The position numbers and the translations under genes were made by a program. From positions 1 to 63,852 of IMG/VR virus record IMGVR_UViG_3300043331_001014: a DNA stretch of 63,852 bases; one strand, 5' to 3'. How positions within the stretch are numbered: position 1 is the stretch's first letter; each line of letters starts with the position of its first letter. Positions 27,691-63,852 of this stretch are shown piece after piece. The stretch is from a virus. The notes beneath the pieces are model-generated. The model was given only the letters and a program-made list of their open reading frames with translations, searched no databases and was not told the DNA's origin.

Positions 27691-30600
27691 ATGGTCCAGA
27701 TCCCAACCCGAGAGAATCTTGGTCAGGTCCGCATCAATGGGCGGGCGACTCCGGCCCAGATTAATCCGGCCGTGGCCTACGATATCGGTCGCGCGGGTGC
27801 CGCCATGGACCGGGCGATGAGCGAGGTCGCCGCTGCGTTCGCCGGTCTTGGCGCGAAACAGCAGGCACAGGAAGACGCAACGTGGCTCGCCGATGCCAAG
27901 ATCAAGACGCTGGAGGCCGATGACGCCATTCGCCGCGACACCGAGCTGAATGCCGGCGAGGATGGCACCGGCTTCGAGCGGGCGCCACAGGGCCTGAAAA
28001 GCTCGATCGAGGAGGTGAAGAAGAAGCCCGGTGGTTCACCGGCGGCTAGGGCGAGCTATGATCTGTGGGCAGCAGAAAGGACCTACGAGACCGGACGCTG
28101 GGCCGCTCATTCTGCGCAGGACCGCCTCAAGACCTCGACGCTCAGCCGGCTGGACAAACGGCTAGACACCCTCTCCGGGCTCGCATCCTCCAATCCTGAG
28201 CGTGCCGAAGAATATCTGGGCGCCTATGAGGAGGAGATCAAGGGCTATGTCGGCTCGGCAATCACTGCCGAAGATGCCGCCAAGCGCATCGAGCAGGCCC
28301 GCGCGACCATTGGTTATGAATCGCTGAAGACGCGCGCCATCGACAAGCCGGGCGATTTCGGCAAGGCGCTGAAGGCGATCGAAGGCGCCGGCAGGCCGGA
28401 TATTGTCGACACCGAGACTCGCGAACTGCGTGCCTATGAGCCGCCGCCAAAAGCAGAAGGACTGATCGAGCCTGGCAATATCGATCTCGACAAACGCAAG
28501 GTCCTCCGTATGCCGGATGGGTCGATCAAGACTGAAGAGTCAATGTCGATCGGCACCGATCGCGGTGAGGTGCTGATCCCGACTGTTGTTGACGGCAAAA
28601 AGCTTTCCGAGAAAGAAGCCATCGCGCATTTCGACAAGACCGGTCAGCATCTCGGCATTTTTAAGACGGCGGAAGATGCCGATAAGTATGCCCAGGCATT
28701 GCATGAGCGGCAAGGACGGTTTTATGGAGCCGGGGGCAGCCCCGAGCCAACATCTGGAGTTTCCGATGGGACGAAGTCGACCGGTCCGGTCGAGGGCGCC
28801 TACACAGTGCCGGGGCTGGACATCATCAACAAATCCTCGGCGACGGCAACCTATGGCAAGGGCGCGACCCGCAACGCCAAGCCGTTCAGTGCCATCGTGC
28901 TGCACCACACCGGCGCGGGCACGGTGGAGAACCTGATCAAATATGGCCAGACCACGGATAGGGCGCGCGGCGGCTCCTTCGGCTACCACTTCTACATCGA
29001 TCGGGACGGCACCGTCTATCAGGGTGCTCCGATGGACAAGCGCACCAATCACGTCAAGGACCCGCGCAATTTGATGCGCGTCGGTGGCGGCGACATTTCG
29101 AACTCGAACGCGATCGGCATCTCACTGGTCGCCACTCATGGCGGCAAGGAGACGCCCGAGCAGGTGGCGGCGGCCACCAAGTTGGTCCAGTCGCTGAAGC
29201 AGTCTTACAAGATCGGTGAGGGCCGCATTGTCGGTCATGGTGAGCTGCAAAAGGACCGCGAGCACAGCGAAGGAGCGGCCGTCCTGCGCGCGATGCGCGG
29301 CGGCCAGCCGGTGTTGGTCGAGAAGCGTACAGTGCCGGCCGCAGTCGATCCCGACAAGCTGCCCAAGGTCGCCGGCACCATTCAGCCCTCCGAGTTGCTG
29401 AAGCTGCCGCCGGAAGCCTTCAACAAGCTGAAGGCCGGATTGGCGCCATTCCTGCAAACTGAATTGAAGTCCAGAATGGACAAGGCCGTTGCGTCGCTGG
29501 CGGCAAAGGGCTCGCAGGACATTATCACGCCGCAGGAGCTGGACGATGCCGCTCCGCTGATCGGGGCGAAGACCGTCTCCGAATGGAAGGAATCCCTGAC
29601 AGAAAACAAAATGCTCTTCGATGTCAAAACCGAGATGAAGAGCATGACCAAGAGGGAGCGCGAGCTTCGGTTCAACGACATGGTGCCGACTGGCAATGTA
29701 GAGGATCTTGCCGGTGAGGAGCGGACCCGGTTCAATCTGTGGGTCAAGGCCAGCCAAGATATCGATACGGCGATCAAGAAAGATCCGCTTGGCTATGTCT
29801 CGCGCGAGACCGAGAGCGGCCGGCAGGCGATCAGGCTGATTGCCGGGGCGCCGGATGGCGAGAAGGGCACCGAGGTCCGCGAGCGTGCTTACAACACGCT
29901 GATCAATCTTCAGCGCGGCGAGGGCGTCGCCGACAATGATATCGCCATCGTTGGCCCGCGCGAGGTCAACACCATCGTCAATGCCTATAAGAGCAACAAG
30001 ACTGGCCCGGCCCGCGAGCAATTCATCAAGAGCTTGCGCTCCGTCTACGGCGCCCATACCGACCGGGTCTGGACCGAGCTGGCCAGGAACGGCCTGCCGA
30101 CGGCGTTGCAGGCCATGGCAACGGCCAATGAGCGCGGGCAGGATTCCTTGGTGCAGGCTTTCGCCCTCCAGGAAGCGATCAACGAAGGTGCCGGCAAGGA
30201 TGCCGATGCTCATGGCGCGCTGCGCAAACGGGCCGGCATCGACAAGAATTTCGATCGCAACATCACTGATACAGTGGCGCCGTTCTCCGAGGCGTTGACA
30301 TTCTCCTCGAACGATCTGCGCGTTGCTTACCGCAACGCCGTCGAGATGACGGCGCTCTATTACATGACCCAGGGCCAGTCGCAGTCCGACGCCATTAGCC
30401 AAGCCTATAAAGACCTGATCGGCGACCGGGCCGAAGTTTATCGCGGTGCGATCATTCCGGCTGAAGAAAACGATACCGATCTGAGGGTGGCATTGCGCGG
30501 TGCCTACCAAGCGCTTCTGGAGCGCGACGAAGGCCGAATCATTTCCAACCTGAAGGTCGACCGCTCCAAGGACTACATCACCGAACGTAATAGCTATTTA

Positions 30601-39852: not shown

Positions 39853-41247
39853 ATGACCCATTCGGCCCTCGGCGCGGTTGCTGTTTACACCGGCTCTGGC
39901 TCGCCAGGGCCATTTTCGCTCGTGGATCTGGACGCCAACCCGATCCTTTTCGAAGACGACAGCGACCTACTGGTGCGTGTCTTCGACCCCGACGACATTC
40001 TCAACCCGACGACCCTGACGCTCGGCGTCGGCTATACGCTGGCGGGCGCGGGCGGCACCGTTGCCGGCTCGATCACTCTCAGCGCCAATCTGACCTCCGG
40101 TCTGGTGCTAACGGTGCTGCGCCGTGAGCCGCTGACCCAGACGCTGGATATGGAGTTCGGCGGCGCCCTGTCGCTCGACCAGCTCGAAGCCGTGCTCGAC
40201 AAGCACACCCGCCAGCTCCAGGAGATGCGCGAGCAGGCCGACCGCTCGTTCCGGTTCTCGACCGCCGATGTCGCAAACAAGGCGCACAGCTACGTTCCGA
40301 CCCCGGAGGCTGGCAAGGTCTGGCGCTGGAACGACGATCTCGACATCGAGTTCGCTACCATCACCATTCTGCTGAGCGGCGAGGGGGTGCCGGGCGATGA
40401 TCTTGGCAACAATGGCGACATCTATCTCGACACTCTGACTGCCGATCTTTACGTCAAGGCGACCGGCGAATGGGAGCTGTCGATCTCCCTGATTGGTCCG
40501 GCTGGCCCGATTGGCGCCACAGGTCCAACCGGCCCGACGGGGCCAACTGGTGCTACTGGCCCGACCGGGGGAACCGGGGCAACCGGTGCCACCGGGGCGA
40601 CCGGCTCCGATGCTGCCTTCGTCGGCCCGACCGGGGCTACAGGGGCCACGGGCGCAACTGGCGCGACGGGGGCGACGGGGGCAACCGGAGCGACTGGTGC
40701 AACTGGAGCGACAGGCCCTACAGGCGCCACAGGCGCTACAGGCGCTACAGGCGCTACAGGGGCGACAGGCGCTACAGGGGCGACAGGGGCGACAGGCGCC
40801 ACAGGAGCAACAGGGGCAACAGGGGCAACCGGAGCGACAGGGGCTACGGGAGCAACAGGAGCTACCGGGGCGACCGGCGCAACGGGAGCGGCGTCGAGCA
40901 AATCCTTCGTCATTGCCTGCTCTGATGAAACCACTCCCATTACTGCCGGGACCAACAAGGTCACCTTCCGGATGCCGTTCGCCATGACGCTGTCGGCTGT
41001 ACGGGGGTCGCTGACCACGGCGCAAACTTCCGGCAACATCTTCACCGTCGACATCAATGAGAGCGGCACGAGCATCCTCTCCACCAAGCTAACCATCGAT
41101 AATGGCGAGGAAATCTCGACCACGGCTGCGACGACCGTGGTGATTTCCGACAGCTCGCTTGCCGACAACGCCGAGATCACCATCGATGTTGATCAGGTGG
41201 GTGACGGCACTGCTAAAGGCCTCAAGGTCGTTCTGATCGGGACATAG
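39853..41247 (+). CDS. Tail fibre with gp17-like anchor and collagen-like shaft
   Basis: A 464-residue protein. The N-terminal 145 residues ([45 protein letters not shown]) match the T7 gp17-type anchor. Residues about 215-347 are an almost unbroken Gly-X-Y collagen-like run, mostly GAT. The C-terminal 118 residues form a beta-rich trimerisation/receptor domain ([15 protein letters not shown]). The GGNGCNACN DNA repeats (about 40495-40893) also leave other frames open. Confidence 0.8.
40495..40893 (+). repeat. Collagen-like 9-bp coding repeats
   Basis: Tandem codons of Gly-Ala-Thr and Gly-Pro-Thr type over about 400 bases. The array creates long open frames on the - strand (VAPVAP repeats), which are not genes. 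Repeat number can change by slippage, so fibre length may vary between isolates. Confidence 0.85.
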
Positions 41248-51957: not shown

Positions 51958-52461
51958 ATGCTCAAGGCCACTGCTCAGGAACAGCGCTTCTGGCTGCCGA
52001 ACCCTCCGAGCGTGAACTGCTTGTTCCGCAACTCCGTCCCTGGCGATCGGCGGGGCGGACGCATTCCGACAGAAGAATATGAACAATGGCGTCGGCAGGC
52101 CAGACAAGAGCTGATGATCCAAAAACCAAAGCGTTACGAATCTCCTGTAGTATTGTCGATGTTCTTCGGTGAGCGATCTGTTCTTGCCGATGTATCCAAC
52201 TTCATCAAACCAATCGAAGACATGATGGTGGAGTTCGGAATACTTGCCGGTGACAATTCGAAGTTCGTCAAGGGGTTCGACAAAGTCTGCTGGGTTCCTA
52301 AATATCATGGGTGCGTTACTCATGTTCGTCTATGGAGGGAATCAGAACCTTTGCACGACGGTTTCGATTTTAATGTACTCGGAAACCAACAAGCCACTTC
52401 CGTTACCTTTGGAATGCACAGCAGTGCCATTGGTCGCTTTAAAAAATTGAAATTAAAATAG
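51958..52461 (+). CDS. rusA: RusA-type Holliday-junction resolvase
   Basis: A 167-residue protein. LPNPPSVNCLFRN, then LADVSNFIKPIEDMMVEFGI and a following DNSKFVKG match the RusA motif in which Asp residues hold magnesium and Lys completes the site. AAGGG precedes the ATG. It resolves four-way junctions from phage recombination before packaging. Divergent from the recombination operon. Confidence 0.8.
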   Translation: MLKATAQEQRFWLPNPPSVNCLFRNSVPGDRRGGRIPTEEYEQWRRQARQELMIQKPKRYESPVVLSMFFGERSVLADVSNFIKPIEDMMVEFGILAGDNSKFVKGFDKVCWVPKYHGCVTHVRLWRESEPLHDGFDFNVLGNQQATSVTFGMHSSAIGRFKKLKLK

Positions 52462-52466
52462 AAGTT

Positions 52467-52541
52467 GAGTTGAGCTGAGCTGCGTCGAGCCGAGGCGAGC
52501 CGAGGCGAGTTGAGCGGAGAAGAGAGGAGCCGAGTTGAGAA
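52467..52541 (+). repeat. GAGNN pentamer array, 15 units
   Basis: Fourteen exact GAGNN units and one GCGNN in 75 bases, directly after the rusA stop codon. NN varies among at least eight pairs. Confidence 0.9.
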
Positions 52542-52564
52542 GAAATCATCATAATATACTCGTT

Positions 52565-52619
52565 GAGTTGAGTCGAGGAGAGCTGAGACGAGGGGAGCAG
52601 AGCGGAGTTGAGGGGAGCC
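52565..52619 (+). repeat. GAGNN pentamer array, 11 units
   Basis: Eleven consecutive exact GAGNN units, starting 23 bases after the previous array and ending one base from the stop codon of the leftward gene. Confidence 0.9.
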
Positions 52620-52620
52620 G

Positions 52621-53208
52621 TTACTTTCTCGCGATTTCGATCAACTCGCGATTATCTTCCCATTTAATACTTTCGATAGCGAATCTACCGTTCTGACCAC
52701 CCTTCTCCGGTCGCCAACGGCCGATGCCGCGATATTTACCAGCAACCTCTAGATGGCGAACGAAAACATCTTCGGTGATCTCAGGGTCAAGCACGGTCAC
52801 TGAAAACTTCGCCGACCATGGCGCCATGATCGGGAACCGCCGATACACACGCTTGCCAGAACCCCTGACGCCATCGGCATTCGAATAGATATCCTCGTAG
52901 GTCACATCCTTGACCTGAATGTTGGTGATTGCTGGTTCAAACATGGCGATGCCGCCTTCGAAGTGCTTGGTCCATGTGGCCATGCCCTTTTTCTTCTCGC
53001 CAAGATAACGGACGCCGGAGTGAATACACTGTATAATTGCGGTCTCTGGAATAATGACTATGCCATCTTTGGTGTGCAGATGCTCTTTCCAAGTTCTTTT
53101 GTCGTAGTCTTCATGACTTTCTCCATTTTTCTTTGGCGCCTCATGGGCGCGAGACTGGCTGTAGATGCCAAGTCCAAGTATGTTTACTTGCGCGACGGAC
53201 GATTTCAT
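52621..53208 (-). CDS. Conserved phage protein flanked by pentamer arrays
   Basis: A 195-residue protein. MKSSVAQVNILGLGIYSQSR, then SHEDYDKRTWKEHLHT and VRGSGKRVYRRFPIMAPWSA match a conserved phage protein of unknown function often near recombination genes. The repeated RTW.EHLHT/YLGEKKKG pattern suggests a nucleic-acid or Cas7-like RAMP fold, but that is guesswork. AGGA precedes the ATG. It is the only gene with GAGNN arrays on both sides. Confidence 0.55.
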   Translation of the reverse strand: MKSSVAQVNILGLGIYSQSRAHEAPKKNGESHEDYDKRTWKEHLHTKDGIVIIPETAIIQCIHSGVRYLGEKKKGMATWTKHFEGGIAMFEPAITNIQVKDVTYEDIYSNADGVRGSGKRVYRRFPIMAPWSAKFSVTVLDPEITEDVFVRHLEVAGKYRGIGRWRPEKGGQNGRFAIESIKWEDNRELIEIARK

Positions 53209-53226
53209 TTGAGTTTCCTAGACGTT

Positions 53227-53301
53227 GAGTTGAGAGGAGGTGAGCAGAGCAGAGGCGAGTTGAGTGGAGCCGAGGCGAGTTGAGTGGAGCCGAGACGAGA
53301 C
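53227..53301 (+). repeat. GAGNN pentamer array, 15 exact units
   Basis: Fifteen consecutive GAGNN units. Within it a 20-base block (GAGGC GAGTT GAGTG GAGCC) occurs twice in tandem (53252-53271, 53272-53291), suggesting growth by block duplication. On the transcribed - strand it reads as CTC repeats in the leader of the gene at 52621-53208. Confidence 0.9.
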
Positions 53302-53303
53302 GT

Positions 53304-53705
53304 TTATTCTTGACAGAACTCAATCGCCAGTCCCAGTCTATTTAATTCTTGCGTTAATTTTACCTTGTCCTGCGCCAGCATAAGACCTTCGTTTGTCCGA
53401 ACGACACCAACGATTTGGGTCTGCGCGCGGCCAAGGCCGCGGCGCGCTTTTTGCCGCGCCCGCTGACCAACCAGATTGGCATCGGCCGGATCAAGTTTCT
53501 TGATGCCATGGCCAACGATTGTTGCAAAAATGCAACCCTGCTCTTCCTCAACAAGCCGACGCGCCCGATTGAGCAAGTGCATCTTACCCGACAATAAGTT
53601 GTCGAGACGTGATTTTGGGAGCAGCTCGCCAATTTTAACCTCGCGCAAGACCGAGGCCAGATTGGAGAGAATGGCCAAATTTTCTGGACTGCTAATGTAT
53701 GGCAT
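53304..53705 (-). CDS. Unknown protein, 133 residues
   Basis: MPYISSPENLAILSNLASVL with helical, basic middle (RQKARRGLGRAQTQIVGVVR). Possibly nucleic-acid binding, but no clear domain. The stop codon is 2 bases from a pentamer array. No strong ribosome site is seen. Confidence 0.45.
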   Translation of the reverse strand: MPYISSPENLAILSNLASVLREVKIGELLPKSRLDNLLSGKMHLLNRARRLVEEEQGCIFATIVGHGIKKLDPADANLVGQRARQKARRGLGRAQTQIVGVVRTNEGLMLAQDKVKLTQELNRLGLAIEFCQE

Positions 53706-55031: not shown

Positions 55032-55116
55032 CTCGGCTCCTCTCACCTCTGCTCGGCTCGATTCATCTCGTCTCGGCTCGCCTCATCTCGGCTCCGTTCC
55101 ACTCAACTCAACTCAA
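55032..55116 (-). repeat. GAGNN pentamer array in inverted orientation, 17 units
   Basis: On the + strand 17 units of CTCNN type (15 CTC, two TTC) fill the leader of the next gene; this is GAGNN read on the - strand. A 41-codon frame (55012-55132) runs through it and ends in an ATGA overlap with the following gene. Confidence 0.9.
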
Positions 55117-55128
55117 CGAATCCCTGTC

Positions 55129-55761
55129 ATGAGCAAGGTCAAGACCTTCCTCGCCTCCCCGGCGGGAGCGAAATTTTCCAAATTAATCGGAATGTTGGGC
55201 AGCGATGGTGAGGGCGAGCGTTCAAACGCTGCCGCTCTGGCCACGCGCCTTCTCAAAGAGAACGGCCTGACATGGTCGGAAACCGTGAGTGGTGCCGGCA
55301 CCGTCCAGGCGCCCCAGCAGCGCTGGAATGGCGACGCAGCGCGGGTCTCGATCCTGGAGGGTCAGCTCCGCATGGCCCACCAGACCATTGCCAGCAACAG
55401 TTGCGAGATTCGCCGCCTGAAGGACCAGATCGCCAGCCTACAAATGAAGTTGACGACAGCCGAGGGAGAGGTGCTGGCGGCATGGCGGGCGTTCAAGCAG
55501 GCCGATCCCGAGGTGAAGATGCACTCGCCGGACAAGGACAATGACGGCACCCGCAAATTCGCCTCGAAGATGCAGGCGATCCTGAACTGGTCGATCGACC
55601 AGATCGAGGACGCCATCGAGCTCAGCGAATGGGAGCAGGGCTTCCTGAAATCGATGCGCGAGCTGAAATGGAAAATCTCGCCGAAGCAGTTCGCGAAGCT
55701 GGTAGATATGGCCGATCGGGCGGGGGTCGACCTGTCGGAGCTAGCGGCCGAGATTGGATAA
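55129..55761 (+). CDS. DUF2786-like phage protein
   Basis: A 210-residue protein. KLIGMLGSDGEGERSNAAAL then ATRLLKENGLTW is typical of the DUF2786 domain common in phage replication regions. A central coiled coil follows, and the end (LSEWEQGFLKSMRELKWKIS) is another frequent helical motif. No enzyme motif. First gene of the replication operon. Confidence 0.65.
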   Translation: MSKVKTFLASPAGAKFSKLIGMLGSDGEGERSNAAALATRLLKENGLTWSETVSGAGTVQAPQQRWNGDAARVSILEGQLRMAHQTIASNSCEIRRLKDQIASLQMKLTTAEGEVLAAWRAFKQADPEVKMHSPDKDNDGTRKFASKMQAILNWSIDQIEDAIELSEWEQGFLKSMRELKWKISPKQFAKLVDMADRAGVDLSELAAEIG

Positions 55762-63695: not shown

Positions 63696-63805
63696 TGCCG
63701 TGCATGGCAGGGCCGAGCTAGGCTAGGCTAAGCCCGGCAAGGCCGGGCATGGCGCGGCAAGGCCGGGCATGGCGCGGCAAGGCCGGGCATGGCGCGGCGA
63801 AGCAA
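63696..63805 (+). repeat. Pentamer array of GCNNG type at the genome closure
   Basis: About 22 units with GC at two fixed positions. The last 12 form three tandem 20-base blocks (63736-63795) of four pentamers each. On closing the circle it lies directly upstream of the glycosyltransferase gene. The copy number may be collapsed in the assembly. Confidence 0.9.
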
Positions 63806-63852
63806 TCCACGGAAATTACATGCGTATAGCGATCTCGATGTGCCGGCGTCAT
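63756..63852. repeat. Terminal direct repeat, right copy
   Basis: Identical to 1-97 over 97 bases, including the start of the glycosyltransferase gene. The circle therefore has about 63755 unique bases. Confidence 0.95.

Follow-up and report, generated by a model that had tools for sequence, protein, structure and literature searches.

The closest described counterpart of this locus is VIPR, a phage system consisting of a RAMP protein, Vipr, and of vrRNAs in which a fixed GGY triplet alternates with two free bases, NN (PMC13142463, bioRxiv 2026.04.26.720920). The free dinucleotides of a vrRNA read DNA, with one target base skipped per unit, and in the guides of phage SUSP1 the skipped base is aligned with the wobble position. 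Vipr is a single-RRM RAMP protein of about 20 kD that binds the array RNA; the pentamer arrays are intergenic, hold 9–16 units and flank vipr, an accessory vap gene is present, and the repeats are followed by an invariable structured 3′ tail. The fixed triplet is given as GGY "or a related consensus", and VIPR, so far described in one 2026 preprint, is proposed to be an ancestor of CRISPR effectors (PMC13142463).

The window analysed here is the whole of a 63,852 nt stretch of viral DNA (IMG/VR record IMGVR_UViG_3300043331_001014). In a preliminary description, three arrays of 15, 11 and 15 pentamers were reported on either side of a gene at 52621–53208, and these are present at their reported positions. 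No named element of this form was given there, but VIPR and vrRNA are the names introduced in the 2026 preprint (PMC13142463). The locus is best read as a phage-encoded VIPR system with the arrays as its vrRNA genes (probability about 0.94). This reading is backed by the gene families, by the predicted fold, by the anatomy of the arrays and their co-occurrence with vipr, by the hypervariability of the guides and by the motif match of one of them (v2). That the arrays are transcribed and the RNA is bound, that the skip is a physical one and that the target is repressed would be expected from the published SUSP1 work. The features of the locus are:

51958–52461, RusA-like resolvase gene, adjoining the arrays
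52467–52539, minus strand, array v1, 15 CTCNN units (14 GAG and one GCG on the plus strand, i.e., one CGC unit), 3′ of v2
52565–52617, minus strand, array v2, 11 CTCNN units (11/11 GAG on the plus strand), directly 3′ of vipr
52621–53208, minus strand, vipr, predicted single-RRM RAMP (Cas7-like) protein of 195 aa
53227–53299, minus strand, array v3, 15 CTCNN units (15/15 GAG on the plus strand), between vap and vipr, holding a doubled 20-base block
53304–53705, minus strand, vap, Vap1-like accessory protein of 133 aa, 5′ of vipr and on the same strand
55032–55114, plus strand, array v4, 17 CTCNN units (15 exact, two TTC units), 5′ of a gene at 55129

Array v4, on the opposite strand, was absent from the preliminary description. 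Each of v1, v2 and v3 contains eight different NN pairs, while v4 contains 11 (17 units, 15 exact). Five consecutive GAGNN units have 29 matches in the window, overlapping placements included, against none in 100 dinucleotide-preserving shuffles. The doubling of a 20-base block, reported earlier, was confirmed by Tandem Repeats Finder, which placed it at 53247–53299. Unit counts of 11, 15, 15 and 17, with a fixed triplet and hypervariable NN, are the format of VIPR arrays; a search of the window and seven relatives against Rfam at the gathering threshold gave no match.

Other repeats were also seen in the window. A GGCNN array (GGC fixed, 20-base tandem unit) runs across the contig ends (63706–63798 and 1–43), and an exact terminal repeat of 97 bases (1–97 = 63756–63852) is expected if a circular assembly was closed inside this array. 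A second Vipr to go with the GGC array was sought in the window and none was found; the array may be served by the Vipr of another element, or may be a plain repeat. Its triplet is compatible with the GGY of PMC13142463. In the tail-gene region (40624–40890) there is a long 9-base repeat, consensus GGCGCGACA, which is probably collagen-like coding sequence.

By profile comparison and predicted structure, the product of the flanked gene is a RAMP protein homologous to Vipr of phage SUSP1. It matches phrog_4652 at 1.9e-11, and SUSP1 Vipr matches the same family at 1.4e-96; an HMM built on the family of the window protein gives SUSP1 Vipr 51 bits. Searches of NCBIfam, PADLOC and Pfam returned no name for the gene, and tblastn of the protein against named phages found no match. 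The AlphaFold model (pLDDT 90.7, pTM 0.84) was compared with the PDB by Foldseek, where the best matches listed were CRISPR Cas7-type subunits (E 2.6e-07), and it aligns with the Cas7-type structure 8yhe_F across nearly its full length (Z 13.7). The likeness to the Cas7 subunits of Class 1 CRISPR systems (type VII Cas7, Csm3) is one of predicted fold over nearly the whole of Vipr, with Z up to 13.7, whereas sequence identity is 8–17%; and, unlike Class 1 CRISPR loci, the two-gene locus beside the arrays has no repeat-spacer array, and no other cas gene was seen there. The vap product matches SUSP1 Vap1 (ALH47068) at 64 bits, and its profile family adjoins vipr in nearly all relatives.

The unit was originally described as GAG followed by two free bases. 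The fixed triplet and the eight different NN per array agree with this, but the functional strand is probably the coding strand of vipr, on which the unit reads CTCNN and GAG is the complement. Two features point to this strand: it is the minus strand that codes vipr, as for GGTNN in SUSP1 (where vipr, at 28474–29061, has GGTNN arrays to either side, on its own strand), and the ends of the arrays are conserved on the CTC side. All four window arrays end CTCAACTCAAC on the CTC strand, the sole end sequence that they share. Arrays of relatives end XYZ-AA-XYZ-AACG or similar on the gene strand, followed by conserved sequence and hairpins; the conserved sequence was seen 3′ of the arrays at loci L178, L189 and L046, and the hairpins at L178 and L046. 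At the window arrays, folding of the 3′ sequence was no better than that of shuffles, and promoter-like sites occurred at chance level, with no clear promoter. Transcription of the CTC strand would be expected by analogy with SUSP1.

When viral contigs were scanned for eight exact GAGNN units, most hits were microsatellites with one to three different NN. A minority had GAG fixed and NN free, and these are the class to which the window arrays belong. With a profile of the window gene, homologues were found in six of the free-NN loci (L031, L046, L056, L060, L102 and L116) and a more distant one in L103, while no homologue was found in the microsatellite loci. The check that had been proposed, whether arrays accompany homologues of the 52621 gene, was answered by a search with the protein only, which gave 285 relatives. 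In 63 of the best 80 of these 285, vipr has period-5 arrays beside it in which the triplet is fixed and NN is free, and the remainder of the best 80 have mostly shorter or degenerate arrays. Nearly all of the arrays (154/156) are within 1 kb upstream to 2 kb downstream of vipr. No period-5 array occurs in 340,860 bases of control loci, which are stretches collected for another purpose. The triplet on the gene strand is most often CGC, then CAC, CTC, GGC, GAC and CGA.

Some relatives carry more extensive sets. At L046 and L122 (contig IMGVR_UViG_3300042561_001378) at least 10 CTC arrays follow one another in tandem. Between them lie a hairpin that is conserved (AACCCCG...CGGGGTT) and a −10-like GGCATAAT, an arrangement that would suit guides with a terminator and a promoter each. 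No guide set seen was larger than that of L178 (8986–11548), where fourteen CGC arrays with a conserved hairpin tail surround a single vipr. Two further loci (L079, 4463–4909; L114, 7010–7456) have three GAG/CTC arrays with free NN and no Vipr homologue within the stretch examined; their vipr may lie outside it.

Among close relatives, the triplet is kept while the free bases change. In pairs whose Vipr proteins are 93–95% identical (L169/L171, L171/L178 and L207/L213) the triplet is the same, and the best-matching arrays share only 14–36% of their NN units, as expected of reprogrammable guides. A sister phage of the window (L140, Vipr 79% identical) has CTC arrays in the same places on both sides of vipr, with other NN. 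Over a tree of 63 Vipr proteins, the triplet changed at least 11 times. The residue following GxG in the G-loop (R164 in the window protein) is Arg in every Vipr read whose triplet has a middle G (CGC, GGC or CGA), Gln in six of the seven with a middle A (CAC), and Arg, Thr or Ala in those with CTC. Pairing of Arg with G and of Gln with A is the classical recognition preference. When residue 164 was compared with the triplet over independent pairs, the supported pairs were too few to give the test enough power, and the association is a lead only.

One of the guides could be decoded. The guide of v2 is CC AA CG TG CC GT AG TC GA, and its antisense translation, in which the skipped base takes the wobble position, reads S-[DE]-L-T-G-[HQ]-R-[FL]-G over nine consecutive units, none wrong. 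This is the familiar N-terminal motif of the HNH/AP2 homing endonucleases of phages, whose genes are selfish and form a widespread class. A first scan of viral contigs with an eight-unit core of v2, allowing a one-base skip, gave 10 matching stretches, about the number expected by chance. Several of these lay antisense, had the skipped base in the wobble position and gave readings like SDLTGQRFG. For a second scan the poorly conserved serine unit was dropped and the glycine kept, and a sharp rise was predicted beforehand. At least 120 stretches were found, nearly all reading DLTGQRFG, against 16, 8 and 1 for the eight-unit cores of the other guides. Because the motif reading was noticed after the first scan, it is the second that was a real test of it. 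Among the matches listed, the antisense wobble frame is open for at least 60 codons in 119/124, e.g., MGRLIDLTGQRFGRLTV.

Full matches to all nine units (18/18) within the motif were found only at L226 and L256, from unrelated organisms. The gene at L226 encodes an HNH endonuclease (phrog_374, 2.1e-67); the v2 site lies four codons after the start, and the match stops exactly at the guide's own ends. A second example protein that was checked (L263) has an HNH_3 match and a weak AP2 match. The probable target of v2 is the 5′ end of genes for HNH/AP2 homing endonucleases, and since the skipped base falls on the wobble position of the codon, one guide can fit many members of this family. Matches of v2 outside the motif (L222, L224, L225, L229, L257, L258 and others) look like chance.

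The same scan of viral contigs with the eight-unit cores of v1, v3 and v4 gave 16, 1 and 8 stretches, about the chance level, with no convincing extension past the searched core, and no targets were found for these guides. The readings of v1 and v4, used as short and therefore weak peptide queries, found nothing. In a local search of 2.35 Mb of phage DNA with skips of 0–3, there was no enrichment over shuffled guides. Self-targeting was considered and rejected, the best self matches (v2 14/18, v1 and v3 19/26, v4 18/28) being unconvincing.

The format of the arrays recalls a different RNA-binding protein. TRAP (MtrB) is a ring-shaped protein whose RNA targets have 11 GAG or UAG triplets, two or three bases apart, and the window arrays have a fixed GAG, two free bases in between and 11 to 17 units. 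However, GAG lies opposite the gene strand and the triplet varies by lineage, those on the gene strand of relatives including CGC, CAC, GGC, GAC and CGA, which TRAP would not bind. The arrays track a Cas7-like protein rather than a TRAP gene, and no PF02081 match was found in the phage record, in a search whose control detects Bacillus subtilis, although the host may carry a copy. The chance that they are the binding sites of a TRAP-like protein is close to nil. Functionless slippage microsatellites, or an assembly artefact, are no more credible. One-unit microsatellites do make up most (GAGNN)x8 runs of viral contigs, and a 20-base block is doubled in v3, yet the triplet stays fixed while NN is free, and the arrays sit beside one gene in 63 of the best 80 relatives and in none of the control loci; separate contigs from many samples agree with each other, against an artefact. 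The strict period of 5 and the adjoining RusA-like resolvase gene would suit a repeat acting as DNA, i.e., a nucleoid or recombination element or an origin, bound by a DNA-binding protein at half-helical-turn spacing. Nucleoid, helical-face and recombination-hotspot roles had been raised in the preliminary description and found no support here: near-identical relatives keep the triplet although their NN turn over fast; v2, read at codon spacing, spells a protein motif, as a structural repeat would not; and the flanked protein has the predicted fold of RNA-binding Cas7 subunits. We consider such a role very improbable. The suggestion that the flanked protein binds the arrays fared better, given their association in relatives, but the bound form is likely an RNA guide transcript and not a DNA structure; published Vipr binds array RNA (PMC13142463).

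A narrower alternative accepts the VIPR system and takes the fit of v2 to HNH/AP2 genes as coincidental, the real target being another. The motif is very abundant, so that matches are easily found, it was noticed only after the first scan, and all nine units are matched within it only by two sequences from unrelated organisms. Set against this are the unbroken run of nine units spelling the motif, the predicted rise from 10 to at least 120 matches, almost all in the motif frame, and the same wobble alignment of the skip in the SUSP1 guides (PMC13142463). Coincidence is unlikely, though it keeps some weight.

With the VIPR reading, the locus is an additional example of a kind already described (PMC13142463), to which it adds a CTC class; this triplet may or may not fall inside the authors' "related consensus". 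In common with the SUSP1 (type II) system it is phage encoded and has a RAMP protein of about 195 aa with an adjoining Vap1 homologue, fixed-triplet/free-NN arrays upstream and downstream on the vipr strand, and a guide that reads coding sequence with the skip at the wobble position. It differs in its triplet (CTC, not GGT/GGY), in arrays for which no folded tail like that of SUSP1 was seen, in having vap upstream of vipr, in a fourth array on the opposite strand, some 1.8 kb away from vipr, and in a decoded guide that points to homing endonucleases instead of satellites or prophage regulators.

By analogy with SUSP1, RNAs in which CTC alternates with two free bases would be made from the minus strand along vap, v3, vipr, v2 and v1, and at v4 from the plus strand. 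Vipr would coat the array RNA, presumably with one subunit per five bases, so that the triplets are held and the NN pairs exposed. These would pair with double-stranded DNA, each pair being followed by one target base that is passed over, and a target gene with the Vipr–RNA complex bound to it would no longer be transcribed; in the case of v2 the complex would probably sit at the 5′ end of an HNH/AP2 homing-endonuclease gene.

From sequence data only, and in an uncultivated phage, the locus supports the main points of VIPR, namely the RAMP gene, the pentamers as guides and a code that skips one base, aligned with the wobble position. Besides the CTC-triplet class, it adds a triplet that switches from lineage to lineage, with guides that turn over, it suggests a residue that may set the triplet, and it provides one natural guide that could be decoded, against HNH/AP2 homing endonucleases. 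More tentatively, and with somewhat less than even odds, the triplets may form an evolving recognition code, partly set by the G-loop of Vipr; guides such as v2, aimed at conserved protein motifs through the wobble skip, would in addition allow a single RNA to act against every member of a gene family in rival selfish elements.
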